The notes under the pieces are model-generated. The model was given only the letters and a program-made list of their open reading frames with translations. It ran no database searches and was not told where the DNA came from. Positions 7,177 through 32,480 of a stretch of 34,493 nt of DNA are shown piece by piece. Positions within the stretch are counted from its first letter, which is position 1; every line of letters begins with the position of its first letter. Made by a program: the position numbers and the translations under genes. Origin of the DNA: Armatimonadota bacterium (GTDB taxonomy: Bacteria; Armatimonadota; Hebobacteria; CAIYQO01); the NCBI GenBank assembly GCA_029553475.1, contig JAKPKV010000183.1:1-34493 (forward strand), written 5' to 3'.

Positions 7177-8193
7177 CTACCCACCGTGCAGCGCTTCCCA
7201 GTCATGAAGGGCTTCCGCGTAATATCTTACACGCGCCTTTTTGTATTCCTGCGTGGAAAACAGCGCCACTGGGGTGGGGAGGCTCACCGCGGCGGCCAGG
7301 CGGGCGAGGATCGCGAGGCACTCCTCGCGCGAGCGGGCATGCACCATGGTGAACAGATTGTACGGCCAGCCGTCGGCGCGAGGGCGCTCGTAGCAATGGC
7401 TCACCTCTTTCGCGGTCGCCAACTGGGCGCCCACCGCGGCGACGCGGTCATCGGGCACGTCCCAGATGCCCATGCCGTTGGCGGTGAAGCCGACTTTGCG
7501 ATGGCGCAAGACGGCGGCCAGCCGCCGCAGGTAGCCGCGGCCGTACAGGCGCTGGACGCCGGCGAAACAGGCGTCCGCGGTCATCCCCGCGCGCGCCGCC
7601 ATTACCGCATACGGCTCCGCGGCGATGGGGAAGGGTTCCTGCAGCAGGCGGATGAGGGCGATATCCGCATGATCGGGCGGCGTCGTGGCCCCTACAACGG
7701 CCTGGGCGGGCGCCGGGGCGCTGTCGCCGCCCACATCGAGCTGTACCGCGAGCTTGAACGTGCGCAGCGCGGGCAGCGGCGCCATGCGGCGGGCGCCGGT
7801 GAGCCGCGCGAGGATCGCCAGCGTCTCGCGCATGCCCAAGCGGCTGTCCGGCGGCAGTGCGAGGGTGAACCACAGGTTGAAGGCGTGCCCCTCGCGGGCA
7901 TAGTTGTGGCTGACGCCGGGGTGCGCGCTGATGACGGCGGCGGCGTCGTCCAGCCGTTCGGGCGGGTATATCGCCGCCGCCAGCACGGAATCGTAGCCCA
8001 GCGCGCGGGTATCGAAGAGGCCGGAGAGCTCGCGGATGAATCCGCCGTCGAGCAGGGATTGCGTCGTCGCCAGCACGTCCGTCTCCGGCAGACCGATTTC
8101 GGCGCCCACTTCGGCGAAGGGGCGCGGCGCGCGCGGCAGGTCGCGCTGCAGCCTGGTGAGCAGTTGCGTCTCGTGAACGGTGAAGTTCGTCAT
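7177..8193 (-). CDS. Fused AhbA/AhbB (NirDL-type) siroheme decarboxylase
   Basis: A 338-residue protein made of two tandem Lrp/AsnC-like halves, each a helix-turn-helix plus a ferredoxin-like domain. Half one (about 1-165) carries SHNY at 95-98. Half two (about 175-338) carries SHCYER at 265-270. These SH-x-Y stretches mark siroheme decarboxylases. The family converts siroheme to 12,18-didecarboxysiroheme, either for heme (Ahb route) or for heme d1 (NirD/L). The two subunits are normally separate or fused as NirDL; this is the fused form. No nitrite reductase or other nir gene is nearby, so heme synthesis is the likelier role. No clear ribosome site precedes the ATG. It lies 35 bases behind the M48/RidA frame and may be transcribed with it. 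Confidence 0.85.
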   Translation of the reverse strand: MTNFTVHETQLLTRLQRDLPRAPRPFAEVGAEIGLPETDVLATTQSLLDGGFIRELSGLFDTRALGYDSVLAAAIYPPERLDDAAAVISAHPGVSHNYAREGHAFNLWFTLALPPDSRLGMRETLAILARLTGARRMAPLPALRTFKLAVQLDVGGDSAPAPAQAVVGATTPPDHADIALIRLLQEPFPIAAEPYAVMAARAGMTADACFAGVQRLYGRGYLRRLAAVLRHRKVGFTANGMGIWDVPDDRVAAVGAQLATAKEVSHCYERPRADGWPYNLFTMVHARSREECLAILARLAAAVSLPTPVALFSTQEYKKARVRYYAEALHDWEALHGG

Positions 8194-8228
8194 AAGAATA
8201 TATAAGCGATAAACGCTCTCGTAATATC

Positions 8229-8687
8229 TTACGCGACTTCAACGATCATGTCAACTTCAATGCAGGCGTCCTTGGGGAGCACGGCCACGCCGACGGCCAC
8301 GCGGGCGTGCGTGCCGGCATCCCCGAAAACGCCGGCGAGGAGTTCCGATGCGCCATTCAGCGCGACGGGTTGATCGGTGAACGTCGCGGCGGAGCTGACA
8401 TAGCCGGTGACGCGGACGATCTGCTTCACCCGCGACAGGCCCACGGCGTCATGCACGATGGAGAGGCAATTCAGCGCGGCCTGGCGGGCGGCGAGCTGCG
8501 CGCGTTCCAATGAGACGCTGGCGCCGACTTTTCCGGTATATTCCGCGGGCAGCGTGCCCGCGACCAGCGGCAGCTGCCCGCAGAGGTACAGCAGGTTGCC
8601 GGTGCGCACCACGGGCAGATAAATGCCGAGCGGTTCGGGAGGGGCGGGCAGGGCCAGGCCCATTTCGGCAAGGCGTTGCAGCGGCAT
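8229..8687 (-). CDS. RidA family protein from internal start
   Basis: The last 152 codons of the M48 frame form a full-length RidA/YjgF protein. It begins MPLQRLAEMG at the usual N-terminus of the ~150-residue subgroup. The body matches the family (GNLLYLCGQLPL, VTGYVSSAATF, NGASELLAGVFG, HARVAVGVAVLP). RidA proteins hydrolyse reactive enamine/imine intermediates. This stretch has its own ideal ribosome site: AAGGAGG (8701-8695) with exactly 7 bases to ATG at 8687. RidA is therefore probably made as a free protein whether or not the longer fusion also exists. Which product dominates cannot be told from sequence. Confidence 0.7.
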   Translation of the reverse strand: MPLQRLAEMGLALPAPPEPLGIYLPVVRTGNLLYLCGQLPLVAGTLPAEYTGKVGASVSLERAQLAARQAALNCLSIVHDAVGLSRVKQIVRVTGYVSSAATFTDQPVALNGASELLAGVFGDAGTHARVAVGVAVLPKDACIEVDMIVEVA

Positions 8688-9761
8688 CGGGTGACCTCCT
8701 TCGACGGGCGCCGCGGCGGGCGCGGGGCCGGCGTGAGCGGATGACGGGTTCAGTGTGCGCGTACCAATCCCGGCGCCGGGCCGCGCCGGCGCGGCTGATG
8801 GGGTGGGGAGGGCGCCCAGCCGCGCCCGCACCAGCTCCCGCGCGGCGCGGTAGGCGGCGTGATCGCGCCATTCGTGCAGATTTTTGATGCGCGTCGCGGC
8901 ATCATTGCGGATGAAGAGCAGATCGTTATAGGCCTGATTGAATCCGACTTCCTCGCCGGGGTCCACCTGGCCTTCCGCCGCGATGAAGCGGGTGATGCGC
9001 GCGCGAATCTCCCCCATGGGGAAGGTGATGACGACCTGCAGCAATACGCCCATGGTGGCGAGATTGAGGTCGGGATTGATGACCAGCGTGAGACGGTCGG
9101 CCGTGACATCCGCCCAGTGCGCCCATTCCTCCAGCGCCAGCACCAGCGGCAGGATCGGCAGGATGAGGATGCGGAGCGCGCCCTCGATCTCCGTAGTGGC
9201 CACGCCGGCGGCCAGCGGCGCCAGCGGGAGATGACCGGCGAAGACATGCCCGACCTCGTGCATGAGCAGCCAGTGCAACTGGCGGTCGTTCGTCTGCGCA
9301 TAGAGCGCCTCGGTCAGGTAGATGGCGTTCCCGGCGCTCATGAGTGCCGGGTCGCCGCCGGGGGTGATGACCACGGTGGGGATGGTCGCGAGGGGCACGT
9401 GCCGGCAGATATCATTCACCATCATCTGCGGGTGTTGGCGCGATTCCGGTACGCTCACGGAACCGCTGGCCGCCAACTGCTTCCAACTGCTGATGAGCCG
9501 GTTCATGCGCGCGAGCAGCCAGCAGTACGGGGCGAAGACCCAGAGCATGGCGGCGCCGAAGAGCACCCAGCCCACGGTGGCGGTTTTCGGATTCAGCGCG
9601 AAGGGGAGGGTGGCGCCGAGCGCGAGGATGAGGATGACGGCATTCCCGATCAGGCCTTTCAGCAGCGGCTCTGTTTCCTGGGGCACGCGCACGTGCGCCG
9701 CCTGAAGGCTGACTTCAGGAGCGGCATCGCGTTTCGCGCCGTAGGGTGTGTTGTCCGCCAC
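8229..9761 (-). CDS. M48-like membrane peptidase reading through into RidA
   Basis: A continuous 510-codon frame from GTG at 9761 (GGAG 7 bases upstream). Residues 1-355 are an M48-type metallopeptidase: two TM segments (about 36-56, 62-84), the zinc motif HEVGH (168-172) and DVTADR (218-223), where the usual third-ligand glutamate is aspartate. A further hydrophobic stretch lies at about 196-210. After a Pro/Ala-rich tail (320-357), the frame continues with no stop into a complete RidA-family protein (359-510). The product may be a real fusion, a membrane peptidase with a RidA domain in the cytosol, or the peptidase may simply have lost its own stop codon. See the internal start feature at 8687. 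Confidence 0.75.
   Translation of the reverse strand: MADNTPYGAKRDAAPEVSLQAAHVRVPQETEPLLKGLIGNAVILILALGATLPFALNPKTATVGWVLFGAAMLWVFAPYCWLLARMNRLISSWKQLAASGSVSVPESRQHPQMMVNDICRHVPLATIPTVVITPGGDPALMSAGNAIYLTEALYAQTNDRQLHWLLMHEVGHVFAGHLPLAPLAAGVATTEIEGALRILILPILPLVLALEEWAHWADVTADRLTLVINPDLNLATMGVLLQVVITFPMGEIRARITRFIAAEGQVDPGEEVGFNQAYNDLLFIRNDAATRIKNLHEWRDHAAYRAARELVRARLGALPTPSAAPARPGAGIGTRTLNPSSAHAGPAPAAAPVEGGHPMPLQRLAEMGLALPAPPEPLGIYLPVVRTGNLLYLCGQLPLVAGTLPAEYTGKVGASVSLERAQLAARQAALNCLSIVHDAVGLSRVKQIVRVTGYVSSAATFTDQPVALNGASELLAGVFGDAGTHARVAVGVAVLPKDACIEVDMIVEVA
8695..8701 (-). promoter_or_regulatory. Strong internal Shine-Dalgarno for RidA
   Basis: AAGGAGG on the minus strand, 7 bases before ATG 8687. 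It lies inside the M48 open frame, where it encodes part of VEGGHP. It is the best ribosome site in this stretch of the window and is the reason to call a separate RidA product. Confidence 0.75.
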
Positions 9762-9867
9762 TTGACACTCCGCTCGTTACGACAAGGCGTATATAGTAAT
9801 AAGATACCATATTCCCACCCTGATCCCTGCCGGGAAGCGCCGCCGCGCCGATTTCGGTATGATCGCG

Positions 9868-13743: not shown

Positions 13744-15153
13744 TCAGGCGTGCAGGCGCGCGATCCGCGGCCAGAGATGCGGGGCGATGCCCGGCGCATC
13801 GGTGGGGCCGTCCGGGGTGATGAGCGCACAGCGCGCCATGCCTGACGGGCGAGGATTGGCTTCCAACAGGAGGGGAAGAAGGCGGCCGTCATCCGCCGCA
13901 TCGAGCAAGAGGTCGAGCCCGATGAGCGCGGGCATGGCAGCGCCGAGCTCCTGCGCCAGCGCGTCAGCGCCGCGCGCGGCGGCCATGAGGAGGCGCGTCC
14001 AGTCATCGTGGGCGGGGGTGAACGGGCGGCCGTCCGCGCGGCAGAGGCGGCGCCAGAGGTCGCCCAGGGCGATGACGCGGCCGCCGCGCCCGGCGGAGGC
14101 GATGCCGTGCGGGCCGGCCAGTTGGGCGTAGCCTGACTCCGGCCAGGCGCGGGCGCCGTCCCAGCAGACGTTGACGCGGAGCACACACCGCGCCGGACCC
14201 GTGTCGGTGCGCGCGTGCACGGTGCCGCGCTCTTCCGTCAGCAGGGCGGCGTCGCCGAGGTGGGCGAGGTGGCGGAGGGCCGCCGCGCGCCGCGCGGGCT
14301 GCCGCAGGTCAAAGCAACCGACCCCGCGGCCCTCGGTGCCGTCCACGGGTTTGATGACGAGGCGGGGGCCGTGCGCGGCGATGAACGCCGCCAGCGCATC
14401 GCGCGCGTCGTCGCCGGCCGGCATGGCCCAGGCCGGGGTCGCCAGGCCGGCGCGCTGCCAGCAGGCGGCGGTCCGGGCTTTGTCGTCGAGGAATGCGGCG
14501 CCGTCGGGCGGATTCAGCAGCGGCACGCCCGGAAGCAGCGCGGCAGCGCGGCGATGGTCGGCATGCTCCCGGCGGAGATCGAGGCCGAGGGCCTGCGCGC
14601 TGGCCGGCGCGAGCGGGGCGGCCAGCGGCGCTTCGTAGAGCAGGTCGCGGTCCACCGCGAAGGTGATGGCGCGCGTCATACGGCCGGCGCGGAACCAGTC
14701 GAGATGTACGCCGACGACGCGCAGCGCCGGCGCGGCAACGCCGGCGTCGAGCAGCAGCGGGTAGAGTTCGTGCGTGATGTGCGGGAACGCGGAAAAGACG
14801 AGGGCATGCGCCGGTCCCGTCAACGGTTGCGGCGCGGGCAGGAGCAGCAGCGGGGGCGCCAGCGGCTCCCCGGCACAGGCGTCACGCGCCAGGTCTATGA
14901 CGCGGGAGGCGGTCGGCGGCTCGTAGAGCCATGACGCGGCGAGGGGGTGATCCGCGTTTTCGGCGGCGGCCCGCAGTGAGCGCAACGCGGTTTCCGCCTG
15001 CGCGCGGGAAAATTCCCCTTCGCGCAGGCGTTCCGCCAGGGCATAGGAAAGGGCGACGCCGAACACCTCCGGGGGGAGATGCTCGGCGCTGACACCCAGC
15101 TCGGCGCCGGCGCGCGCGGCGCCGGCGTGCAGTGCGTCGTTCAGGGAGCGCAT
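13744..15153 (-). CDS. ATP-grasp ligase, substrate unknown
   Basis: A 469-residue protein. The C-terminal half is a RimK/GshB-like ATP-grasp: DDK (223-225) opening the domain, the nucleotide lysine in LVIKPVDGTEGRGVG (265-279, Lys268), Arg326 in VLRVNVCWDG, Asp414 in IGLDLLLD and the metal pair in LLEANPRPSG (Glu431, Asn433). The N-terminal 200 residues form an unrecognised helical and alpha/beta region. Such enzymes join a carboxylate to an amine or similar nucleophile through an acyl phosphate. Its ATG overlaps the stop of the giant gene (TGATG), so translation is coupled and the two products are probably equimolar or in complex. Substrate and product not deducible. Confidence 0.8.
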   Translation of the reverse strand: MRSLNDALHAGAARAGAELGVSAEHLPPEVFGVALSYALAERLREGEFSRAQAETALRSLRAAAENADHPLAASWLYEPPTASRVIDLARDACAGEPLAPPLLLLPAPQPLTGPAHALVFSAFPHITHELYPLLLDAGVAAPALRVVGVHLDWFRAGRMTRAITFAVDRDLLYEAPLAAPLAPASAQALGLDLRREHADHRRAAALLPGVPLLNPPDGAAFLDDKARTAACWQRAGLATPAWAMPAGDDARDALAAFIAAHGPRLVIKPVDGTEGRGVGCFDLRQPARRAAALRHLAHLGDAALLTEERGTVHARTDTGPARCVLRVNVCWDGARAWPESGYAQLAGPHGIASAGRGGRVIALGDLWRRLCRADGRPFTPAHDDWTRLLMAAARGADALAQELGAAMPALIGLDLLLDAADDGRLLPLLLEANPRPSGMARCALITPDGPTDAPGIAPHLWPRIARLHA

Positions 15154-18100
15154 CAGCGTCGGGTAATGGCCTCCAGATAGTCTTCCCCGGCTTTCGCCAT
15201 GTCATGCAGCACGATGCGCGCCTGGGCGCCGACGGCGGCCCAGTCGGGGGTCTCCGCCGCGCGGACGGCGTAGAACTCCTCGCGGATGGCCAGGCGGTCC
15301 CAGAGGCCGATGCCGATGTTCGGCTCGATGAGCACCACGCGCCAGTCGCGGACGTGGCCTTCGCAGCGCTCCTCGCCGTGCTGCAGGATGAAGCGCGCGC
15401 CGGCGCGCTCGCCCGCCGCGTCAAAGCGCGGCTCCACGTCCACCAGGATGCCCTCTTCGGCGAAGATCGGCTGCACGATGAAGTCCAGCATCATATAGCG
15501 CGGCACCGAGTACGGCAGGCCGGTGGCGTCGCGGCCGACGGCGCGGCCGGTTTCCGCCGTGTACTGGTCGGCGGCCACCTCGCCGTAGCGGGCCAGCGCC
15601 GCCATCGCCTTCTCGCCGGCCTCGACCAGCCGCCGCATGAGCAGCTCGCGATGCGCGGGCTGGATGAACTCCGGCTTGAAGATCTCCAGCGTGCCGCCGC
15701 GGCCCACGTTCGTGATGAGCTGGCGGCTGTTCAGCGTGATGGGATGCGACACGTGCCAGGCCTGGGCGGCCGGATCCGCGCTGGAGAAGACCAGGCGGTG
15801 CGAGCCGTAAATGGCGGTGCGCGGGCGGCGGGTGCGGTTCACCACCGCGCCCCACTCCTGGATCTGCCGATCCGTGAACGAGCGCAGGAACTCCTCCGTC
15901 GCCCAGTATTCGGGCGAGGAGATGATGACTTCCTGGATGGCGATGTTGTGCTTCAGGGTGATTTGGTAGGCGAAGTCCACCGCCTCGGCCAGCGCCGCGT
16001 CGTCCGGGGCGCCGTCCTCGCCGCGCAGGGCGAACACCTTCTGGCCGCGCCCGCCGGACTCCGCCGCGTCTTTGAGCATCACCAGCCGGAAGCGCTCGGC
16101 GAATGCGCGCAGGCCGGGGAAGCCGCGGTCGGCGTCGCCGAACTCCAGCGCCGCGCGGGTGGCCGCTTCGCCCAGCTCCGCCGTCCAGGCCGCCAGCCAG
16201 TCAATCTCACCCGGCAGCTGCACGCCCGTCTCGGCGCGGAAGATGTCGGGGTACTTCGCCTTGTCGTAGGTGGTCCAGGTGTGGAAAAGGCTCTGACTGG
16301 AATAGGGCAGGCCGAGCGCTTCCAGGCGCCCGCTGTCGTAGAGCGGATGCCCGTGCATCGGGAAGATCAGGCCGGCGGTCACCGGTTTGGTGAAGTACGC
16401 CGCGACGCACACGCCTTTCGGGCCGACGTGCTCGTCCGCCAGCGCCTCCGCCTGGGCCGGGGTGAGGCCATTGTGCTGCTGCAGGGCGGCGATATATTCC
16501 TCGCGGCTGATGTAGAGATGCGCGTGGCGCACCTGCAGCACCGGGCGGCGCATGGCGTCCAGCGTCACCTCTTCCGCGTGGCGGGAGATGAGGAGGTTGG
16601 CGCCGGGGCGCCCCTGCGCCCGCAGCTCGTTGGCCAGCGCCGGGCCTTCCATCAGCGCCCGCGAGACGTGGGTGCGGCCCACCGGGTAGAGCAGCAGCAT
16701 GTTGACCCGCGCGTCGGCGTTGATGATCGCCGGGTCGAAGGCGGAAAAGAGCCGCGGGAGGGCGAAGCCGTCGTTGCGCATGAAGGCGATTTCCCGCAGT
16801 TTGGTGAAGGCGCGCCAGCGGCGCTCGGCCGGCGAGTCGCCGTTCTCGCCGATGGGCACCGTGCTCCCGTCGCCGTCCATGTCGCCGATGAGCGCCGCCA
16901 ACTGCTCCGGCGTATACTCCCGCAGCTCGGTGAAGGTGAGCGCCAGCGTGCGCAGGTAACGGTATATCGGCGTATAGTGCTCCACTGCCAGTTCGTACAG
17001 CGCCTCGCCCTGCACGTGCGTGAAGCCGTCGCCGCGCGTATACGCCCACGGCCGATACTGGTAGAAGTGGTCGTTGACGAATTCGGCGAAGAAGTCGGCC
17101 ATCGCCCGCCAGACGATGGTCGGATTGTCCGGCGTCACCACGTAGAAATCAATGGTGAGCAGGATGCCGCGGCAAGTGTCGAACAGCTCGGCGAGGTCGG
17201 CCACCTGCGCCAGCAGGCGGTCGCGCTCGGCCTCATCAATCGTCCCGTCGCGCAGCATGGCCGCCACCGTGCCGCCCAGCCGGGCGATATCGCCCGGATC
17301 CTCGTAGCCGCCGCTGATGGCGCGGATGGCCATCATGTCCACGTCGCGCCCGGTCAACAGCGTCTCCGCGTGGGACCGGATGCGCCCCAGGTACTCCGGC
17401 TCCTCGCCGCGGGTGAAGATGTCGCCGCCCAACTCGGCGAGGGAGAGGCGCAGCAGCGCGAGCATGGTGCCGATACGGCTGGTGATCGGCGTGGTGTCAT
17501 CAGCGCCGGCCGCGCGCGCCGCGTCCATCATCGCCGCGAACGGTTTCCCGCTGTAGGCCTCCAGCGCCGCGAGGAAGGCTTTCTCGCGGTCACTCATCCC
17601 CCGGGCGCGGGCGGCGCGCTCCCGCAGGCGCTTGCGGGTGTCAATGGCGACCACCGCCACCTCTTCCGTCGCTTTGTTCGAGCTCTCCACGCCTTTCTCT
17701 TCGCGGAAGGTTTCCGCCGCCGGCACGCAGGCCGGGCAGTAGAGGGCGTCAATGGCCGCCGGGTCGGCGGCGGGGGCGGCGCCGCCCAGCGCGGCGATGC
17801 CCGCTTGGAAAGCGCGGCGCGCCTCCTCCAGCTTCGTGGGCGCGGCGCCCATCAACAGGAATTGCCCGCCCAGCGCCAGCCAACTGGCGAAATCCAATTG
17901 CGCCAGCGGCAGGCCGGCGGCGATGCTCGCCAGCGCGCGCGCGGTGGCCTGTTCCTGCGCCGTCTGCTTGCCGAAGCGCAGCATGCGCTCCTCGGTTTCG
18001 AGGAAGAGCGCCGATTCCTGGTCGGCCTGCAGATCCTGGACGATGGCGGCATAGCGCTCGCGGGCGCCGGCCGCGTCGCCGCCGGCCAGCGCGGCGAGGA

Positions 18101-21100
18101 GCGCCTGCGCGCGGTTGCGCTGGTGGCGCATCTCCTCGCGCCAGCTTTCGATGGTGTCCGCGCCCACGCCCACGCAGCGGTAGAGGGCGTTGCGGCCCAC
18201 CGCTTCGCCGGCGGCGAACCAGCGCATCACCGCCAGGCGGTTCAGCGCGCGATGGCGGGAGCCGGACGCGCCGTCCATGATGATGAGCGCGCTGTGCGGA
18301 TTGCCTTCCAGCATCATGTCGCGCACGCGCACCGGGTTGTCGAGCAGCGCCAGCAGCTCGTCGTGCGGGATGCCGGTGTCGAGCACGTCGCCGCCCTGCA
18401 CCGCCATCTCAAAATTCCCCGCCGGGCCGATGATGCTCAACGCCAGCGCGTGGATATCGCCGCCGATGCGGCTGATGAGCGCCTCCTTGGCCTCCGAGGG
18501 CAGCTCGCGCACCTTCGTCCAGCGCGCCAGCCGCGGCCCGTACACCAGCATATTGGCGGTGATCTCGTTCTCGGTCAGGCCGATCTCCATCAGCCGCCGC
18601 TGTACGCCCATCGCCAGCGGCTCAAGCTGGGTGTCGCTGGTGTAATGCAGCAGGTCGGCGGTGGTGAGCATCATCGGGGAGACCATGCGAATCTCGCCCG
18701 CCGCCTTGCAGCCGGGGAAGAGCGCGCGCAGCCGGGCGAGGCTCTCCTCGTCGTCCTCGCGCACCTGCAGCTCCGCCAGCAGGCGGCTGAGGCGGGCGCG
18801 CAGGCGCGGATCATCGCGATGCTGCCAGAGGCTGTCGAAGCCGTGGAACATCAGGTGCGCCAGGTCCTGCCCGGCGGTGTCCAGGGAATAGGCCAGATGC
18901 TCGCCGGTGCCGGCGAAAAGCTCGTACTTGCGCATCCCCACCGAATAGCGGCCGTCCTGGGTGTTCGGCTTGTACTCCGCCTGCAGCACCACGGAGAAAT
19001 CGTCCTCGCGGATCGCCACCTCGGGATTGAGGCGCTTCGCGTCGGCCAGCGCCTGGTAGGTGAGCCAGACTTTGAAGAAAGTCATGAAACGGTTCACCTG
19101 CTCGCCGCCGACGATGACTTTATGGATGCCCCAGCGCGCCGCCAGGTTGGCGAGCACGTCGAAGGACTCGCGCAGCTCGGGACGGCCGAGCTGGGTCAGC
19201 GCCCGCGCGATGCGCGTCACCTGGAAGACGGGGACGGGCTCGCCGTCGCCCTCGCGCAGCGTGAAGAAGGCGTTCAGCTCGCGCCGCTCGTGCACCAGCG
19301 TCATCGCCCACGCCTCCCACTCGATCTCCGTGGCGAAGGTCCCCCGCCGCGCCAGCAGGTACTCGGAGAAGGCGACGATGCCCTGGTGCAGGTGGTCGGG
19401 CACGCCGAGCTGCCGCAGTTTGGTGGCGCGGGTGAGGATGAGCACGAACTCCAGGAAGAGGCCGTCCTTCGGCACGCAGTAGCCGCCGTACCCCTCGCCG
19501 CCGGGGCGGATGAGGCGGTCCTTGCGGAGGCTCATCTGGTCGCCCAGGTCTTCGATGTCGCCGCGGCCCACCGCGTTGACGAGCAGGCTCATGGCGTTCG
19601 AGTAGGCGAAGAGGGCGACCATGGAGGCGTTCTCCCCGGTCTTGATGACTTCGGGCTCGGTGAGGCTGTCGAACATCTTCACGTTCTTGTTGATGAGGCC
19701 GTAGACGCGGCGGCCGACGCGCGAGCCTTCCCGGTCGGCGCCGCCCACCCACTGCGACCATTTTTCCACCGACTCGCGCTCGTGGGTGCCCAGGTCCACG
19801 CGGCTCGGCGTGTAGAGCTGATTGAAGCGCTTGTTGCCGCCGGCGGCGCGGTAGTAATACAGCGGGTGGAGCGTCAGGTGATGCAGCCCGTGCGCCAGCA
19901 GCGTCTCGCGGCGGGCGGTGGTGAGGGCCAGCCGGGTGTGGTTGCGCAGCCACTCGACGGCGCGGGCGGCAAGCTGCAACGACGGGTCGGCGGCGTCCAT
20001 CTCGCGCAGCGCCATCTCGCGGGCGGCGAAGTGGGTGAAGGCCGCCAGATCGTCCGCGTAGTCCGGATTGGCGAGGACCAGCGCCCGAATGGCCGCCGCC
20101 TCATCGGCCTCCGGGTGGGCGGCCAGGTAGGCATCCACCTGCGGCAGCAGCTCCAGGTCGTTGCGTTCGTAGACGGCGTGAATCGCCCGCGCCTGCGCGT
20201 CCGCGGCGCGGGACGCGAGCAGTGCATCCACCAGCGGGGCATCCGTCCCCGTCTCCAGCCCGACGTGCTCGCCCAGCACGGCCATCAGGCTGAGCTGGCG
20301 CGCGATGATCGCGTTGCCGGCGATGATGCGGCCGATGGCGGCCCCTTCCGGCAGGCGCTCCAGCGCCATCAGCTCTTCCACTTCCGCCCACATGCCCAGC
20401 TCGCGGATGAAGAGCGCGCCGAGTTTGGTGATCGTTTCGCGATACGCGGCCATGCGGTCGCGCACTTCGCCGTCGAGGTCGTGGGCGCGAATGACGTTGC
20501 CCAGCGCCATGGACTCTTCCAGCCAGGTGCGCACGTAGCTGTCGCTCATGCGCGCGGACTGCGTGGTGAGCACGTGCAGGGTGGGGAGGGCGCGGCGCGG
20601 CAGGTGGGCGATGGCCGCCAGCCGTTTCGCCTCCGCGCGCACCGCGTCATCCAGCGCCGGCGCCGATTGCAGCACCGCCAGCGCCTCCGCATATTCGGTG
20701 GTGCCGTTCGCCCGCGCCTGCTTCGCGATGGCGACCACCAGGCAGTGCGGGTGATCGTTCTGCAGGTTCTCCAGGATGATCGCGCGCAGCGTGTCGTAGC
20801 GGGAGAGGCCCTCTCGTTCGGCGCGCAGGTGGATGGCCTCGGCGAAGGTGCGATAGGCGAAGGCGATCATCGCCGCCAGCGCGCCGACGCCCTCCGCCAG
20901 GCCGTGCGCGGCCACCGCCGCGGCGCGGGCGGCGTCCGGGCCGGCCAGCCGCGGGTCGGTCCGCGCCAGCCATTCGCGAGCCAGCGCCACGTGCTCGCTG
21001 TCCATCACGTTCTCGATGCCCTTCGCCCAGTGGTCGGCGAACTGCTCGCGGAAGGTCTCTTCGAGAATCTGCTGGTCAATCACCGTCTCGGTGACTTCCA

Positions 21101-22493
21101 CGCCGTCCACCACCAGCACGCGCTCCTTGATGAAGAGCGGGATGGCTTCCACCCAGTGGTCGGCGTATTGCAGCCAGGCGTAGTCGGGGCTGGCATACAT
21201 GCGGTGCCCGCCCTCGCGCGCCAACTGCTTCAGGTTTTCCGGCTTGCCGAGATAGGGTTCCTGCAGCTCGTTGATGCGCACCATCAGGTGCGATTCCAGC
21301 GGGGCGAGGCGCTGGCTGAGCAGCACGAAGGCGGCGGGGCGGCGGGCGGCGGCGAGCAGCGCCTCGCGCAGGTCGCCGCAGCGGCCCAGCAGCTTTTCCG
21401 TCTCCGCCATGATGGCGCTAGGGGTGGCCGCCGGCGTGTGGCCCTCGCGCTCGGCCTTCAAGGCGGCATCAATGCGCGCGCGCTGCTCATCGAGGATGGC
21501 GTCTTCCAACAGCTCCAGCGCGCCGATCACCGCGGTCTTCGGCGCCTCGTGCGCGCCCTGCAGCATGGTGCGCAGGCGATCGGCGGGCGGGGCGAGGCGC
21601 GGCGTCCCCACGCAGGCGGCCACCAGCGCGCCAACCTTGCCGCGAATGTCATCGCTCAACTGCACGTAGCCGGCGTTGGCAAACAGCAGCGACTGATTGT
21701 GGAACGCGCGGCTCATGCGGCCGAAAATCAGCTCCTGCCCGCGGGCGCGCACGTCCGCCACGATGCGCTCGCGGTTCTCGCGCTCCGTCGCGTAATCGTA
21801 CTGGGTGACGATGTCGTGCAGCAGGACGCGCTTCTCGTCGGGGTCAATATCCGCCGCGAAGATGTCAATCACCGCCTTGCGGTCGTAGGGCAGATCCACC
21901 CGGCGCTGGCCGAGGAACCAGCTTTCCCAGCGCACTAGCTCTTCGGCGTCATGCTCCGCCGCGGCGCGGCGCAGGTAGAGCCCGGCGAGGCCGCCCGCGT
22001 CAACGTCGGCGGTCAGCGCCGCCTGCACCGCCCGCCGCGTATCAGCCGGGAGCGCGCGATAGCGCTCGTGCACCGCGCGCAGCGCGGCGCGTACCGATCC
22101 GGTCTTCACCGCGGTCAGCGCGGCGACCCAGGCCAGCGCCAGCGCCGCGACGGAGGCGATGCCCGGCGCGGCATCCGCCGCCAGGCCGGCCGCGTCCACC
22201 TCGATCGGGGCGCGATGCCCGGCGTAGAGGGCGAGGGGATAGGCGCCGTCGCCCGCGCCGTCCAGCCAGGCGGCGGCCAGCGCCAGCGCCTCCAGGTGGG
22301 CGGCGTCCAGCGCCAGATCGCTGCTGACCCGGTCACCGGTCAGGGTCAGCGTGCCCGCGCCGGCGGGCGCGCCGGCACGCCGGCAGGCACGGCTGACGCC
22401 GCCGTCACCGGGCAGCGCGCGGGTGAGCAGCGCGAAGGGGAGAAATTCATCAAGCCGAGCGGCGGGGGGGACGGCGATCTGGGTCAAACTCAT
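15153..22493 (-). CDS. Giant 2446-residue protein with C-terminal ATP-grasp-like region, family not recognised
   Basis: By far the longest gene here and not one I can name. There is no signal peptide or TM segment, so it should be cytosolic. Residues 1 to about 1000 look mostly helical. A central part holds striking conserved-looking stretches such as GGNKRFNQLYTPSRVDLG, GYGGYCVPKDGLFLEF and ALIIMDGASGSRHRALNR. One CPAC motif lies about two-thirds along. Near the C-terminus VMLKDAAESGGRG (Lys2141, glycine-rich loop 2146-2150), IQEVI (Glu2188, 47 residues on), TNVGRGG and VLIEPNIG (Glu2390, Asn2392) follow ATP-grasp order and spacing. The start ATG at 22493 has no clear ribosome site. It overlaps the ATP-grasp gene (TGATG) and is divergent from an AraC regulator. 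Coding is intact for 7.3 kb. Confidence 0.85.
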   Translation of the reverse strand: MSLTQIAVPPAARLDEFLPFALLTRALPGDGGVSRACRRAGAPAGAGTLTLTGDRVSSDLALDAAHLEALALAAAWLDGAGDGAYPLALYAGHRAPIEVDAAGLAADAAPGIASVAALALAWVAALTAVKTGSVRAALRAVHERYRALPADTRRAVQAALTADVDAGGLAGLYLRRAAAEHDAEELVRWESWFLGQRRVDLPYDRKAVIDIFAADIDPDEKRVLLHDIVTQYDYATERENRERIVADVRARGQELIFGRMSRAFHNQSLLFANAGYVQLSDDIRGKVGALVAACVGTPRLAPPADRLRTMLQGAHEAPKTAVIGALELLEDAILDEQRARIDAALKAEREGHTPAATPSAIMAETEKLLGRCGDLREALLAAARRPAAFVLLSQRLAPLESHLMVRINELQEPYLGKPENLKQLAREGGHRMYASPDYAWLQYADHWVEAIPLFIKERVLVVDGVEVTETVIDQQILEETFREQFADHWAKGIENVMDSEHVALAREWLARTDPRLAGPDAARAAAVAAHGLAEGVGALAAMIAFAYRTFAEAIHLRAEREGLSRYDTLRAIILENLQNDHPHCLVVAIAKQARANGTTEYAEALAVLQSAPALDDAVRAEAKRLAAIAHLPRRALPTLHVLTTQSARMSDSYVRTWLEESMALGNVIRAHDLDGEVRDRMAAYRETITKLGALFIRELGMWAEVEELMALERLPEGAAIGRIIAGNAIIARQLSLMAVLGEHVGLETGTDAPLVDALLASRAADAQARAIHAVYERNDLELLPQVDAYLAAHPEADEAAAIRALVLANPDYADDLAAFTHFAAREMALREMDAADPSLQLAARAVEWLRNHTRLALTTARRETLLAHGLHHLTLHPLYYYRAAGGNKRFNQLYTPSRVDLGTHERESVEKWSQWVGGADREGSRVGRRVYGLINKNVKMFDSLTEPEVIKTGENASMVALFAYSNAMSLLVNAVGRGDIEDLGDQMSLRKDRLIRPGGEGYGGYCVPKDGLFLEFVLILTRATKLRQLGVPDHLHQGIVAFSEYLLARRGTFATEIEWEAWAMTLVHERRELNAFFTLREGDGEPVPVFQVTRIARALTQLGRPELRESFDVLANLAARWGIHKVIVGGEQVNRFMTFFKVWLTYQALADAKRLNPEVAIREDDFSVVLQAEYKPNTQDGRYSVGMRKYELFAGTGEHLAYSLDTAGQDLAHLMFHGFDSLWQHRDDPRLRARLSRLLAELQVREDDEESLARLRALFPGCKAAGEIRMVSPMMLTTADLLHYTSDTQLEPLAMGVQRRLMEIGLTENEITANMLVYGPRLARWTKVRELPSEAKEALISRIGGDIHALALSIIGPAGNFEMAVQGGDVLDTGIPHDELLALLDNPVRVRDMMLEGNPHSALIIMDGASGSRHRALNRLAVMRWFAAGEAVGRNALYRCVGVGADTIESWREEMRHQRNRAQALLAALAGGDAAGARERYAAIVQDLQADQESALFLETEERMLRFGKQTAQEQATARALASIAAGLPLAQLDFASWLALGGQFLLMGAAPTKLEEARRAFQAGIAALGGAAPAADPAAIDALYCPACVPAAETFREEKGVESSNKATEEVAVVAIDTRKRLRERAARARGMSDREKAFLAALEAYSGKPFAAMMDAARAAGADDTTPITSRIGTMLALLRLSLAELGGDIFTRGEEPEYLGRIRSHAETLLTGRDVDMMAIRAISGGYEDPGDIARLGGTVAAMLRDGTIDEAERDRLLAQVADLAELFDTCRGILLTIDFYVVTPDNPTIVWRAMADFFAEFVNDHFYQYRPWAYTRGDGFTHVQGEALYELAVEHYTPIYRYLRTLALTFTELREYTPEQLAALIGDMDGDGSTVPIGENGDSPAERRWRAFTKLREIAFMRNDGFALPRLFSAFDPAIINADARVNMLLLYPVGRTHVSRALMEGPALANELRAQGRPGANLLISRHAEEVTLDAMRRPVLQVRHAHLYISREEYIAALQQHNGLTPAQAEALADEHVGPKGVCVAAYFTKPVTAGLIFPMHGHPLYDSGRLEALGLPYSSQSLFHTWTTYDKAKYPDIFRAETGVQLPGEIDWLAAWTAELGEAATRAALEFGDADRGFPGLRAFAERFRLVMLKDAAESGGRGQKVFALRGEDGAPDDAALAEAVDFAYQITLKHNIAIQEVIISSPEYWATEEFLRSFTDRQIQEWGAVVNRTRRPRTAIYGSHRLVFSSADPAAQAWHVSHPITLNSRQLITNVGRGGTLEIFKPEFIQPAHRELLMRRLVEAGEKAMAALARYGEVAADQYTAETGRAVGRDATGLPYSVPRYMMLDFIVQPIFAEEGILVDVEPRFDAAGERAGARFILQHGEERCEGHVRDWRVVLIEPNIGIGLWDRLAIREEFYAVRAAETPDWAAVGAQARIVLHDMAKAGEDYLEAITRR

Positions 22494-26782: not shown

Positions 26783-27796
26783 TTGCCAGACGTGGATCGG
26801 TCATTCTCGCCGTCGGAGACCGCGGCGGCATCCCGCGTGATCCGCACCGTCCCCTTTGCCAGTCACGAAGAAGCGATGGCGGTCCTCGGACCGCGCGACG
26901 GGCATCTCCGCTTGATGGAGCGCGCCTTTGATGCCGCGCTGATCCTGCGTGACACCACGCTGGAAATTCACGGCCACGTGGAGACCGTCCAGCAGATCGT
27001 CTCCCTCATCGAGGAGTTCATCCACCTCGTTCGCCGCGGGCATCACCCCACCAACGACGAGGTGCGCTACGCCATCACCGCGCTGCGGGAACAGCGCGCC
27101 GCGCCCGACACGGCCGTCTTTGCCGAAGTCATTCTCACCTCGCATCGCGGCAAGCAGATTCGCCCCAAGACGGCGCACCAGCGCGAGTTCACGCAGGCCG
27201 TGCGCGCACATGATCTGGTCTTCGCCATCGGGCCGGCAGGCACCGGCAAAACCTACCTCGCCGTGGCCCTGGCGGTCGCCGCCCTCAACAGCAAGCGCGT
27301 GCAGCGCATCATCCTCACCCGCCCGGCGGTGGAAGCCGGCGAGCGGCTGGGCTTTCTGCCCGGCGACCTGCAGGAGAAAATCAACCCGTATTTGCGCCCG
27401 CTGTATGATGCCCTGTATGATATGATGGAGATCGAGAAAGTCGAGCGTCTGCTGGAGAAGAAGATCATCGAAATCGCGCCGCTCGCGTTCATGCGCGGGC
27501 GCACGCTCAACGACGCGTTCATCATCATGGATGAAGGGCAGAATACCTCGCCGGAACAGATGAAGATGTTCCTCACCCGCATGGGGTTCGGCTCGCAGAT
27601 GGTCGTCACCGGCGACATCACGCAGATTGACTTGCCGGACGGCCAGCGCTCCGGCCTGGTCGAGGTGCGCCGCATCCTGGAAGCCGTGGATGACTTGCGT
27701 TTCGTCCTCTTCGATGAACGCGACGTGGTGCGCCATCCGCTGGTGCAGCGCATTGTGAAAGCCTACGATGCCGCGCCGCGAGGAAAGAAGGCATGA
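26783..27796 (+). CDS. phoH: PhoH family ATPase
   Basis: A 337-residue PhoH-like protein. An N-terminal KH-like part (about 25-110) precedes a P-loop ATPase with Walker A GPAGTGKT (150-157), Walker B FIIMDEGQN (246-254) and VTGDITQIDLP (about 273-283). PhoH proteins are ATP-dependent, RNA-associated helicase-like enzymes, commonly encoded with ybeY. Start: TTG at 26783 with AAAGGAG 9 bases upstream. The stop overlaps the pgpH start by 4 bases (ATGA). Confidence 0.93.
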   Translation: MPDVDRSFSPSETAAASRVIRTVPFASHEEAMAVLGPRDGHLRLMERAFDAALILRDTTLEIHGHVETVQQIVSLIEEFIHLVRRGHHPTNDEVRYAITALREQRAAPDTAVFAEVILTSHRGKQIRPKTAHQREFTQAVRAHDLVFAIGPAGTGKTYLAVALAVAALNSKRVQRIILTRPAVEAGERLGFLPGDLQEKINPYLRPLYDALYDMMEIEKVERLLEKKIIEIAPLAFMRGRTLNDAFIIMDEGQNTSPEQMKMFLTRMGFGSQMVVTGDITQIDLPDGQRSGLVEVRRILEAVDDLRFVLFDERDVVRHPLVQRIVKAYDAAPRGKKA

Positions 27797-29973
27797 AGAC
27801 ACGACCGGCATGGCACGCGCTCGCGCGACAGGGCACGGCATTCGCCCGGCGCACGGGCTGGCGCGCCGCGGTGAAACCGCTGCTCGGGCTGGTGATGGTC
27901 GCCGCGCTGACCACGCTGATCTACGCCCACCTGGACTATTACCAGGTCGGCGCGGTGCTGGAGCAGTTCCGCCCCGGCCTTCCCGCCCCGCATGAGATCC
28001 GCGCCCACCGCGACGTCACCATCGTGGACCTGGACGAGACCGCCCGCCTGAAAGCCAAGCGCGCGGGGGAAGTGCCCCCGGTCTACGAATACGACCGGAC
28101 GGCGCTGGAAGAGGCCAAGAGCGACCTGACCCTGCTGTATGACGCCTTGTTCATCGCGACGGAGGAACATGACGCGCTGCTGCGCGACAAGCATTTTTCC
28201 GCCGCCACCATCGCGCGCGCGCGACACCTCCCCCCCCGCGCGCAGGCCGGCCTGCGCGCCGTCACCCATCACGTGCTGGAGGCGGTCATGGCGGCGGAGT
28301 CGCGCCTGGAATATGAAGCGATGGAACAGCGCGCCGTCAACCTGCTGCGCGCCCGCCTGCCGGAGCCCGATGTCGTGACCCTCGCTGTGCAGGTGGTGCG
28401 CGGCGTGCTGCGTCCCACGTGGATGGTGAACGAAACGCTCACGGAAAAGGCGCGCGAAGCCGCCCGCGCGACGGTGGAGCCGGTGACGCAGTCGTATCGG
28501 CGCGGCCAAGTGGTGGTGCGGAAGGACGCCATCCTCACCGGCACGCTGCTGCAGCAGTTGAAGCAAACCGGCCTGCTCACCCCCGCGCCCATCACCCGCG
28601 TCGCGCCGATCGCCGCCCTCATGCTCCTCGGCGTGCTGGCGCTCGGGCTCTATCTCCGCAACCACTGCCCGGCCGTCTACGCCCGGCACCGCACGTTGCT
28701 GCTGCTCGCGATGCTCATCATCGCCTCCGTCGGCGCGCAGATGCTCTTCGGCGCGAACCAATCGCTGGAGACGCCGGTCAGCCTGATCGCGCTGCCCGCC
28801 GGCGCCATGGCCATTGCCGGATTACTCGGCGTGCAGGCCGCGATCGTCTCCACGCTGTTCATGGTCGTCATCGCCGGGCTCACCGCGCACCACCAGTATG
28901 CCGTCGTGCTGCTGGCCGCCGGCGCCTCGCTGGCGGGCATCATGGCCATCGGCGCCATCTGGCCGGCCAGCCGCCTGGTGCCCGCGGTCATCACCCTTAT
29001 CGTGACGGACTTCCTGCTGCTCATCATCGCCACCGGCCTGCTCCCCGGCGTCGCCGCGGCGACGCTGCTCGTCCACCTCGGCCCGCTGGCCCTCACCGCG
29101 GCCGCCGGCGGACTGGGCGCGACGATTGTCGCCGCCGGCGCGATCTACATCCTGGCGCGGCCCTTCAGCATCACCACCGCCTACCGGCTGATGGAGCTGG
29201 CCAATCCCAACGAGCCGCTGCTGCGTCGCATGATGGCGGAAGCCCCCGGCTCCTATCATTCCAGCGTGATGGTGGCGAATCTCGCCGAGGCCGCCGCCGA
29301 CGCCATCGGCGGCGACATGCTGCTCGCGCGCGCCGCCGCGCTCTATCACGACATCGGAAAATTGAAGCGTCCGGCGTTTTTCGTCGAGAATCAGGCGCCG
29401 CTGGGCGTGGAGAACGTCCACCTGCGGCTGTCGCCGAAACTCTCCTATCTCATCCTCATCAGCCACGTGCGCGATGGGGAAGAGCTGGGCAAGAAAGCCC
29501 ACTTGCCCGAGGAAATTCTCACCATCATCCGCGAGCATCACGGCACGTCGCTGGCCGCCTATTTCTATCATCGCGCGCTCAGCGAAGCCGGCGACCAGCC
29601 CGTCTCGGAGTTTGAATTCCGCTATCCCGGTCCCCGTCCCAGTACCCGCGAATCGGCGGTGGTGATGCTGTCCGACTCGGTGCAGGCCTCGGTGAAAGCG
29701 CTGAAGGAGCCGACGCCCACGCGCATCGCGCACATGGTGCGCGACATCATCGAGAGCCGGCTGGCGGACGGCCAGCTCGATGACTGCGGCCTCACCCTGC
29801 GCGATCTGCGCGTCATCGGCGAGGTCTTTACCAGTATTTTAAGTGGCCTGTATACTTATACGCGCATCGAATATCCGGTGTTGAACGCGGAAGGGGCGCG
29901 CGAGCGTGGCTATTCTCATACAGAATCAACTCCGGCGCCGGGTGGCGCGGACGCTGCTGCGCCGCGCCGTTGA
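27793..29973 (+). CDS. pgpH: 7TM-HD family phosphohydrolase (PgpH-type c-di-AMP phosphodiesterase)
   Basis: A 726-residue protein with the PgpH layout: an N-terminal TM helix, a long extracytoplasmic 7TMR-HDED domain (about 60-275), seven TM segments (about 275-460), and a cytosolic HD domain with SYHSSVMVANLAEAAADAI and YHDIGK (His519-Asp520), then further HD histidines (SHVRDGEELGKKAHLP, IREHHGT). PgpH hydrolyses c-di-AMP, so its presence suggests the organism uses that signal. It overlaps phoH by 4 bases and ybeY by 68 bases. The c-di-AMP activity itself is inferred from family. Confidence 0.92.
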   Translation: MKTRPAWHALARQGTAFARRTGWRAAVKPLLGLVMVAALTTLIYAHLDYYQVGAVLEQFRPGLPAPHEIRAHRDVTIVDLDETARLKAKRAGEVPPVYEYDRTALEEAKSDLTLLYDALFIATEEHDALLRDKHFSAATIARARHLPPRAQAGLRAVTHHVLEAVMAAESRLEYEAMEQRAVNLLRARLPEPDVVTLAVQVVRGVLRPTWMVNETLTEKAREAARATVEPVTQSYRRGQVVVRKDAILTGTLLQQLKQTGLLTPAPITRVAPIAALMLLGVLALGLYLRNHCPAVYARHRTLLLLAMLIIASVGAQMLFGANQSLETPVSLIALPAGAMAIAGLLGVQAAIVSTLFMVVIAGLTAHHQYAVVLLAAGASLAGIMAIGAIWPASRLVPAVITLIVTDFLLLIIATGLLPGVAAATLLVHLGPLALTAAAGGLGATIVAAGAIYILARPFSITTAYRLMELANPNEPLLRRMMAEAPGSYHSSVMVANLAEAAADAIGGDMLLARAAALYHDIGKLKRPAFFVENQAPLGVENVHLRLSPKLSYLILISHVRDGEELGKKAHLPEEILTIIREHHGTSLAAYFYHRALSEAGDQPVSEFEFRYPGPRPSTRESAVVMLSDSVQASVKALKEPTPTRIAHMVRDIIESRLADGQLDDCGLTLRDLRVIGEVFTSILSGLYTYTRIEYPVLNAEGARERGYSHTESTPAPGGADAAAPRR

Positions 29974-30370
29974 CGAGACGCTGCGCGCGGAGGGACGCGC
30001 GCCGCGCACCGTCGAAGTGAGCATCGCGCTGGTAGACGATGCGGCGATTACGGCGTTGAATAGCCAGTATCGCGGTCAACCCGGTCCGACTGACGTGCTC
30101 GCATTTGCACAGGATGATACGCCGGCCGCTCCCGGGGTGCCCGTGTTGCTGGGCGATATCGTCATTGCATTGGATACCGCCGCCGCGCAGGCGGCCAGTC
30201 ACCGGCGCACACTTGACGAGGAGGTGTGCTGGCTGGCCATTCATGGAACATTACACTTACTGGGGTATGATGATGCCACTGCCGAGGGTTTTGCGGAGAT
30301 GGTCCGAAAGGGGACGCGCATCTGGGAACGGCTCTTCCCCGACGCCGCCCCCCCCACACACGGCGCCTAG
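29906..30370 (+). CDS. ybeY: YbeY endoribonuclease, third zinc ligand altered
   Basis: A 154-residue YbeY, which takes part in 16S rRNA 3' processing and 70S quality control. The body fits (GPTDVLAFAQDD, LLGDIVIAL, EEVCWLAIHGTLHLLGYDD). The canonical three-histidine metal site H-x3-H-x5-H reads His113, His117 and Asp123, so the third ligand is aspartate. Start: GTG at 29906 after GGAAGGGG; it lies 68 bases inside pgpH, an unusually long overlap that suggests tight coupling. The next gene also overlaps its 3' end. Confidence 0.88.
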   Translation: MAILIQNQLRRRVARTLLRRAVDETLRAEGRAPRTVEVSIALVDDAAITALNSQYRGQPGPTDVLAFAQDDTPAAPGVPVLLGDIVIALDTAAAQAASHRRTLDEEVCWLAIHGTLHLLGYDDATAEGFAEMVRKGTRIWERLFPDAAPPTHGA

Positions 30371-31085
30371 AGGCACGCTGTCGAGTTTTGGCCGCGCCTT
30401 CGAGGGATTGTCGCACGTGATGTGGACGCAGCGCCACGTGCGCGTGCAGCTCATCATGGTCGTGCTGGTGCTCATGCTCGCCTATTACTACAAGCTTGAC
30501 GCCAGCAAAGTGCTCTTCGTGGTCTCCGCCATCTGCCTCGTGCTCCTCGCCGAGTTCTTCAACACCGCCATCGAGGTGGTGGTCAATATGGTGACCGAGG
30601 CCTATCATCCGCTGGCGAAAATCGCCAAAGACGTCGCCGCCGCCGGCGTGCTCATCGCCAGCACGTATGCCCTCATCGTGGGCGGCACGATCTTCCTCAA
30701 CAGCGAAAACCTGCTGCGCCTCTTCGCTGGCGTGTCGCCGCTGACGCAGCTCGTCGAGCCGCACCCGGTGGTCGTGCTGCTCATGGGCATCCTGGTGCTG
30801 AGCATTATCGTCGCGCTGTCGAAAATCCGCGTCGGGCACGGCACCATCCTGCGCGGCGGGGCGGTGAGCGGCCATACCGCGGTCGCCTTCCTGCTCTTCG
30901 CCTTCATCGTGATCAACAGCAAATATAACCTGCTCATCTCCACCTTCGCGTTCTTGCTCGCCTTCCTCGTCGCGCAGAGCCGGGTCGAGGGAAAGATTCA
31001 CACCCTGCGCGAGGTGCTCTGGGGCGCCACCGTCGCGATCCTGTTCGCCCTGCTGCTGGTCTTTTTCGCCGGGCGCACGCCCTGA
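30273..31085 (+). CDS. DgkA-type lipid kinase fused to PAP2 phosphatase
   Basis: About 270 residues, two domains. The first is diacylglycerol/undecaprenol kinase: FGRAFEGLSHVMWTQRHVRVQL, then EFFNTAIEVVVN and AKIAKDVAAAGVLIAS with the family's acidic and KD residues, in three TM helices. The second is a membrane PAP2 phosphatase: VSGHTAVA (the SGH motif) and SRVEGKIHTLREVLWGA (Arg and His of the third motif). The conserved DgkA N-terminus requires a start upstream of about 30380. The nearest conventional starts are ATGATGATG (30267-30275, GGGG in front) inside ybeY, or a CTG at 30378 behind AGAGG. I give 30273, with the start uncertain. The likely role is recycling lipid carrier phosphate. 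Confidence 0.8.
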   Translation: MPLPRVLRRWSERGRASGNGSSPTPPPPHTAPRGTLSSFGRAFEGLSHVMWTQRHVRVQLIMVVLVLMLAYYYKLDASKVLFVVSAICLVLLAEFFNTAIEVVVNMVTEAYHPLAKIAKDVAAAGVLIASTYALIVGGTIFLNSENLLRLFAGVSPLTQLVEPHPVVVLLMGILVLSIIVALSKIRVGHGTILRGGAVSGHTAVAFLLFAFIVINSKYNLLISTFAFLLAFLVAQSRVEGKIHTLREVLWGATVAILFALLLVFFAGRTP

Positions 31086-31111
31086 CCGGCGCGCGGCGTG
31101 CGCCACCGGTC
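31084..31111 (+). terminator. Weak hairpin after the phoH-dgkA operon
   Basis: GACCGG (31084-31089) pairs with CCGGTC (31106-31111), with an inner GGCGC..GCGCC stem. It begins at the stop codon of the DgkA/PAP2 gene. There is no T-run, so it may protect the 3' end or mark a Rho-dependent stop rather than act alone. Confidence 0.3.
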
Positions 31112-31145
31112 CGACACACAACGACGGGCATCCGCGCCGGACCTG

Positions 31146-31173
31146 TTGCGCCGGGCGGGCAACCTGGTATACT
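31146..31173 (+). promoter_or_regulatory. Extended -10 promoter of the CorC-type pair
   Basis: TTGCGC (31146-31151), 16 bases, TATACT (31168-31173), preceded by TGG as in extended -10 promoters. The predicted start is about 20 bases before the ATG at 31200. The gene has no clear Shine-Dalgarno, so this leader is short and weakly equipped. Confidence 0.6.
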
Positions 31174-31199
31174 GAACGTATCGGCTGGCGCCGACGGTA

Positions 31200-32480
31200 A
31201 TGACGATATTTGATTGGCTATTGCTGGGCGTGGTCGTGCTGCTGATAGGGATCAGCGGCATCTTCGCGGCCGCGGAAATCGGCATCCTGTCCGTGAACCG
31301 CTTTCGCACGGTGCAGCTAGCGGAGAGCGGCGCGCCTCGCGCGCGCCTGCTGCAGCGCCTCCTCCAGCAGCCCGCGCATCTGCTCACCGCGATTCTCGTC
31401 GTCATCACCGGGCTCAATTTCGCCAACGCGGTGCTGGTGACCTACTGGCTGCACCTCAGGCTCGGGCTGCCGGCCTGGGTCCCCTTTGCCGGCCTGCTGC
31501 TGCTGGTGCTCATCTTCGCCGAGCTGCTGCCCATGGCCTACGCCGCCGCCAACCCGGAGTTGGTCGCCACCCGCCTGGCGCCGGTCATGCACCTGGCGAC
31601 GCTGGTCCTGCGCCCGTTCATCACCGCCGTCACCGCGTTCGCCCACCTCCTCATCCGCCTGCTGGGCGGCATCCCCCGGACGCGGCCGCTGGTCACAGAA
31701 GAGGAGGTGCTGACCATCGTGGAGATGGAAACGGAGCGCGGCACGCTGGAAGAGGAAGAAAAAGAGCTCATCAAGAGCATCTTCGAGTTCAGCGATACCA
31801 TCGTGCGCGAAATCATGGTGCCGCGCATTGATATCGTCGCCGCCGCCGACACCCTGCGCATCGGCGCCGCCATCGCGATGACCGTTGAGCACAAATACAG
31901 CCGGCTCCCGGTGTATCAAGGCAGCCTCGATCATATCATCGGCACGGTCCACGCGAAGGATATGCTGCCGTTCCTTTTCCGCGATGAACTGACGGTTTCC
32001 GTACGCGATGCCATGCGCCCGGTAGCTTTCGTGCCGGAGACGAAGCGCGTCAGTGAGCTGCTGCGCGAGTTCCGCGAGACGAAGCAGACGCTGGCCATCG
32101 TGCTGGACGAGTACGGCGGCACCGCCGGGCTGGTGACGGTGGAAGATCTGCTGGAAGAGATCGTCGGGGAAATCTACGACGAATATGACGTGGATGAGCC
32201 GCCGCCGATCGAGTGGCTGGACGCGCGCACCGTGTGCGTGGATGGCAAGCTGCCCATTGACGATCTCGGCGATCTCCTCGGTCGGGCGATGCCGGAAGGC
32301 GAGTATGACACGGTGGGCGGCTTGCTCTACAGCCGTTTTGGCGATGTCCCCACGCGCGGCGAGGCCGTGGAGATTGACGGCTTCCACTTCATCGTCGAAC
32401 GGCTGGACGGTCACCGCATCACCCGCGTGCGCATTGTGCTGCCCCCGGACATCGAGCGCCGCGATGGGGAGGCGCCCTGA
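31200..32480 (+). CDS. CNNM/CorC-type (HlyC) membrane protein, first copy
   Basis: A 426-residue protein: DUF21/CNNM membrane domain with about four TM segments (1-190), a hinge SIFEFSDTIVREIMVPRIDIVA, a CBS pair (about 210-335, with YSRLPVYQGSLDHIIGTVHAKDML and LAIVLDEYGGTAGLVTVEDLLEEIVGEIYDEYD), and a C-terminal CorC_HlyC domain (about 340-425, DGKLPIDDL...YDTVGGLLYSRFG). CNNM/CorC proteins are linked to Mg2+ efflux and sensing; the hemolysin name is historical. The stop overlaps the next gene by 1 base. Confidence 0.92.
   Translation: MTIFDWLLLGVVVLLIGISGIFAAAEIGILSVNRFRTVQLAESGAPRARLLQRLLQQPAHLLTAILVVITGLNFANAVLVTYWLHLRLGLPAWVPFAGLLLLVLIFAELLPMAYAAANPELVATRLAPVMHLATLVLRPFITAVTAFAHLLIRLLGGIPRTRPLVTEEEVLTIVEMETERGTLEEEEKELIKSIFEFSDTIVREIMVPRIDIVAAADTLRIGAAIAMTVEHKYSRLPVYQGSLDHIIGTVHAKDMLPFLFRDELTVSVRDAMRPVAFVPETKRVSELLREFRETKQTLAIVLDEYGGTAGLVTVEDLLEEIVGEIYDEYDVDEPPPIEWLDARTVCVDGKLPIDDLGDLLGRAMPEGEYDTVGGLLYSRFGDVPTRGEAVEIDGFHFIVERLDGHRITRVRIVLPPDIERRDGEAP

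Follow-up and report, generated by a model that had tools for sequence, protein, structure and literature searches.

The main finding of this study is that, in a bacterium of the phylum Armatimonadota, a gene for an M48-like putative membrane peptidase runs without a stop codon into a complete gene for a Rid1-type protein, which keeps a strong ribosome site of its own. The window, by which we mean the whole stretch of DNA analysed here (34,493 nucleotides), is one contig of a 5.27-Mb genome that is distributed over 194 contigs and estimated to be 99.5% complete. We favor, with a probability of about 0.6, a reading of the sequence in which an M48-like gene ahead of Rid1 lost its stop codon, the spacer between the two became a linker, and the locus now gives both a fused and a free Rid1 product. 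The mechanism is ordinary, while the pairing is unusual. The features on which the argument turns are all on the minus strand.

9768..9773, minus strand: GCGGAG, moderate ribosome site of the long frame (-6.3 kcal/mol)
8796..9761, minus strand: residues 1-322, the M48-like part (a putative membrane peptidase), which starts at GTG and matches Pfam M48 (PF01435) at the cut-off
9246..9260, minus strand: HEVGH zinc/catalytic motif, residues 168-172, placed by alignment and intact in the window copy
9093..9110, minus strand: DVTADR motif, residues 218-223, placed by alignment, in which Asp takes the place of the Glu found in the majority of M48 homologues
8688..8795, minus strand: Pro/Ala-rich linker, residues 323-358 (36 residues), 80% G+C, without codon periodicity
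8695..8701, minus strand: AAGGAGG, Shine-Dalgarno sequence of the internal Rid start, seven bases ahead of the ATG at 8687
8229..8687, minus strand: complete Rid1-type protein of 152 aa, ATG start (PF14588, E 4.5e-21)

Together, these features form a single open frame of 510 codons (510 aa) that runs from a GTG start at 9761 to a TAA stop ending at 8229, with the M48-like part first, then the linker, and then the complete Rid protein as residues 359-510. G+C content at codon positions 1/2/3 is coding-like in the M48 part (0.69/0.45/0.85) and in the Rid part (0.75/0.47/0.82), with equal phase, and both parts are therefore read in one frame. A preliminary description of this DNA had claimed that the peptidase frame meets no stop before Rid, and that Rid begins at its own methionine with AAGGAGG seven bases ahead of it. 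Both claims are borne out: the frame is continuous, and the methionine is residue 359 of the long frame, with the A of its ATG at 8687.

Rid proteins are small metabolite-repair deaminases that form trimers. That the downstream part is a complete member of this family is clear from its match to PF14588, which covers residues 5-148 of the 152 residues of the free domain with 75.6 bits, and from a Ribonuc_L-PSP match of 51.2 bits. The label "RidA" originally given to it has to be revised, however, since the RidA-subfamily model TIGR00004 gives 42.9 bits, far under the NCBIfam cut-off of 106.25; the protein is of the Rid1 type, which PF14588 fits. In all 13 aligned Rid sequences, two residues are invariant: Arg487 and Glu502 in the numbering of the long frame, or R129 and E144 in Rid numbering. 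They lie 15 residues apart, a spacing shared by R105 and E120 of RidA (PMC4433059). According to the relevant part of the same source, the arginine is essential in RidA and retained in Rid1-3 (PMC4433059). Among the best matches of solved structure are 9bk9 (PA0814, E 2.2e-28) and 9bkb (ACIAD3089, E 4.3e-18), proteins of Pseudomonas aeruginosa and Acinetobacter baylyi that are both assigned to Rid1 in the portion of PMC5619798 that deals with them, and with which the window protein shares the conserved arginine and glutamate. These two are free small proteins, whereas the window Rid1 has an M48-like part in frame ahead of it.

The upstream part is a divergent member of peptidase family M48. 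It scores 20.4 bits against PF01435 when taken alone, just above the cut-off of 20.3, and 19.8 bits within the fusion. All 16 members of the M48-part alignment match PF01435, and the profile made from this alignment finds the HtpX homologue 3cqb in the PDB (E 4.6e-8); an HExxH motif and a profile match to the family are both present. With HtpX-like M48 peptidases, the window part thus shares HEVGH, hydrophobic segments and the 3cqb match; it differs from them in its score close to the Pfam cut-off, in an Asp in place of Glu at the ADR motif, and in its C-terminal Rid domain. The Glu is the third metal ligand in M48 peptidases, and the position, three residues before the conserved ADR, holds Asp in the window and in 5 of 15 homologues and Glu in the other 10. 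Its hydrophobic segments lie near residues 32-59, 65-84 and 190-214, which points to a membrane protein. The catalytic part of HtpX is cytosolic, and by comparison the catalytic part and the Rid domain would both lie on the cytosolic side. As a separate observation, Arg replaces the first His of HExxH in 10 of the 16 aligned M48-like sequences (L025, L027, L028, L029, L031, L032, L038, L040, L041 and L047), which may be inactive peptidase relatives distributed over Armatimonadota. A two-row structure prediction was uninformative (mean pLDDT 34).

Fifteen homologues, picked among the matches to the M48 part and aligned with it, have their C-termini at or close to residues 320-345 of the long frame, where the linker begins, and none continues into a Rid domain. 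G+C content in the linker is flat across codon positions (0.83/0.81/0.78). Because the M48 homologues end there and periodicity is lacking, the linker resembles what an M48 tail and the intergenic spacer behind it would become once the stop was lost, and the joining of the two through stop loss looks like the simplest reading. An open linker is by itself not improbable at 80% G+C. An assembly or sequencing artefact is a rival reading, in which one base gained or lost near the very G+C-rich 3' end of the M48 gene conceals the stop of what are really two coupled genes. In its favor are the G+C content of the linker, its lack of periodicity and the fragmented state of the genome. In the +1 frame, moreover, the linker contains a single TGA, at about residue 337, and the one congener compared has the same CTGAACC at this place. 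We consider such an artefact unlikely, as M48 homology and periodicity stay in frame to about residue 316-322, which leaves only some 60 bases for the error, and as no break is seen in other window frames, including one of 2446 codons.

In the stop-loss reading that we prefer, an M48-like membrane peptidase gene would once have lain just upstream of the Rid1 gene, and after loss of its stop codon the former spacer, ribosome site included, would now encode the linker. Initiation at GTG 9761 would give a 510-aa membrane-bound M48-linker-Rid1 protein, while initiation at ATG 8687 via the retained AAGGAGG would yield Rid1 on its own (152 aa), which would probably make up most of the Rid product. 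The predicted anti-Shine-Dalgarno pairing at the internal site, -12.4 kcal/mol, is the strongest among 158 in-frame internal ATGs, and this level is attained at 5 of the 7034 internal codons when every type of codon is counted, in a comparison set of 13 window frames that we chose. Because of this rank, and provided that translation of the mRNA follows the prediction, free Rid1 is probably made from the internal site, and more efficiently than the fusion, which is probably made too. The site appears to be older than the fusion, because the Rid start of the congener has a pairing of -7.9 kcal/mol, weaker than in the window but at a level attained by only 5 of the 158 window ATGs, and because the free-standing Rid1 of a genome of the same family (G002) reaches -12.1 kcal/mol. 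A dual product and a lost stop, which had been put forward as two options, are compatible and probably both true, in view of where M48 ends, the absent periodicity and the strong internal site; each is thereby supported in part.

Trimers are the form in which Rid proteins assemble, and fused and free chains could therefore combine in the trimers presumed here. A retained free form would be useful because the Rid part of the long frame is the single PF01042/PF14588 match in this 99.5% complete genome. A further step, in which the dual-output locus is kept so that membrane M48-Rid1 and free Rid1 in mixed trimers place a deaminase beside a quality-control peptidase in a ratio set by the internal site, strikes us as rather improbable. 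The stop loss could also be real but without consequence, with essentially free Rid1 alone mattering and the fused tail tolerated. This would agree with a linker that looks non-coding, with the free Rid1 of G002, a genome that does without this M48 gene, and with the Arg found at the first zinc His in 10 of 16 sequences, by which catalytic constraint on the peptidase family is not uniform. We regard it as very unlikely nonetheless, given that the window copy retains both HEVGH and an intact frame.

On whether the fusion is kept, the comparison rests on a single congener, the Armatimonadetes MAG UR.bin144 (L003/L020), which is 78% complete and whose contig begins inside the linker. All 32 linker codons present on that contig are open, with no indels relative to the window. 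Identity between the two linkers is 60% at the nucleotide and 44% at the amino-acid level, compared with 87% and 93% for Rid, and the congener linker has almost no periodicity either (G+C 0.66/0.59/0.53). Half of the linker changes, 19 of 38, are at third positions (binomial P 0.025), and 18 codons are nonsynonymous, which is not significantly few (P 0.12); 56% of the runs of a neutral simulation end with the congener linker still open. A linker that is open and free of indels, together with a weaker Shine-Dalgarno sequence, in the only congener is what might be expected if the fusion were the main selected product, with Rid1 tethered at the membrane beside the peptidase and the internal site a relic. 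The openness and the changes fit neutral drift, however, the Shine-Dalgarno sequence in the window is near-perfect, and no second Rid protein was found in the genome as a soluble source, which together make a selected fusion quite unlikely. We claim no conservation of the fusion, because the congener contig starts after the M48 part and because chance alone would often leave the linker open (P about 0.56); a comparison of orthologous loci for a stop, as had been proposed, thus gives one congener open over 32 codons and leaves conservation unproven. Elsewhere in the 78% complete congener genome, a search for such an M48 part found none, and the sequence with which the congener contig opens does not recur, so that no neighboring contig could be linked.

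In G002, a free Rid1 gene lies between a CNNM/HlyC-type gene and ispH, and there is no significant match to the M48 part of the window, though other M48 genes are present; weak matches in G001 and G002 (E up to 10) were judged from their frames to be due to chance. G006, which belongs to the same class, has an M48 homologue that ends in a stop of its own and follows a CNNM/HlyC pair plus a gene for a cytidine deaminase; Rid1 was not found there. That both adjoin the same gene pair weakly suggests that the M48 and Rid1 genes were once neighbors. Among 291 Armatimonadota genomes, 129 have matches to the M48 part and 57 to the Rid part, and by-eye comparison of the two match tables places both on one contig only in the window and in G019. 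The latter is not a fusion: Rid, a cobalamin adenosyltransferase-like frame (named by eye, with no profile) and an ordinary M48 follow one another as separate genes. We also followed the upstream frame at 16 of the 17 Rid1-like places with E below 1e-15, G219 being left out because a contig end cuts it. Twelve close within 72 codons and that of the congener reaches the contig edge at 32, while frames of more than 100 codons occur in the window (363), G040 (451) and G033 (112). The G040 frame lies antisense to a gene for an MFS transporter and was rejected as a second fusion. The junction of the window looks like a lineage-limited stop loss.

None of 414 matching plasmid records covers over 80% of the fusion query, viral contigs gave no fusion match, and the congener was the only match among genome contigs. 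The preliminary description knew of no M48-RidA fusion, and the literature that we searched on RidA/Rid-family fusions with M48 or other peptidases, including Armatimonadetes, likewise gave no report of one. Rid-domain fusions with other families have been screened for, with no M48-Rid pair given in the part of the paper that treats them (PMC4433059). Rid domains are known in fused proteins, as in the tandem Rid-Rid fusions (3x-RidA) that this source describes (PMC4433059). In 3x-RidA, the partner is another Rid domain, whereas here it is a putative membrane peptidase.

The predicted internal start has a parallel in Cas11b, which likewise begins at an internal in-frame start within a longer frame, that of Cas8. 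In an archaeal type I-B system, Cas11b has been described as a separate protein made from such a start (PMC11899642). The difference is that the internal start of Cas11b is demonstrated, whereas that of the window is predicted from sequence and its product would be a formerly separate gene. If both products are made, the locus would represent a young gene fusion in which the ribosome site of the downstream gene still works, in a pairing for which we found no report in the literature searched, and would imply that a fusion can arise without loss of the free protein. If it reflects drift or an assembly error, its relevance is mostly to annotation, where automatic gene callers may predict a single long gene and overlook free Rid1.

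The surroundings of the locus yielded several minor observations. The same-strand neighbors are a YhbY-like gene upstream and, downstream, a siroheme-decarboxylase-like gene followed by an IspH-like gene, the latter named by eye from its likeness to a LYTB-family gene of G002. The siroheme-decarboxylase-like protein (window 7177-8193), which we take to be AhbA/AhbB-like, has two AsnC-type units in one chain. In the gap between Rid and this gene, 24 bases are identical between the window (8201-8224, minus strand) and the congener (L021, 561-584), although 46 of 152 rid third positions differ; this element occurs once in each of the two genomes and is absent from G002. Since the siroheme-decarboxylase-like gene has no ribosome site (+1.9 kcal/mol) and TATATT lies just before its ATG, a leaderless promoter or an operator is possible. 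Further along, the 2446-codon frame is a single open frame at 15153-22493 (minus strand). Finally, 7TM-HD and paired CNNM/HlyC genes at 27793-33784 form a cluster common to G002 and partly to G006, which is adjoined by Rid1 in the former and by the M48 homologue in the latter.
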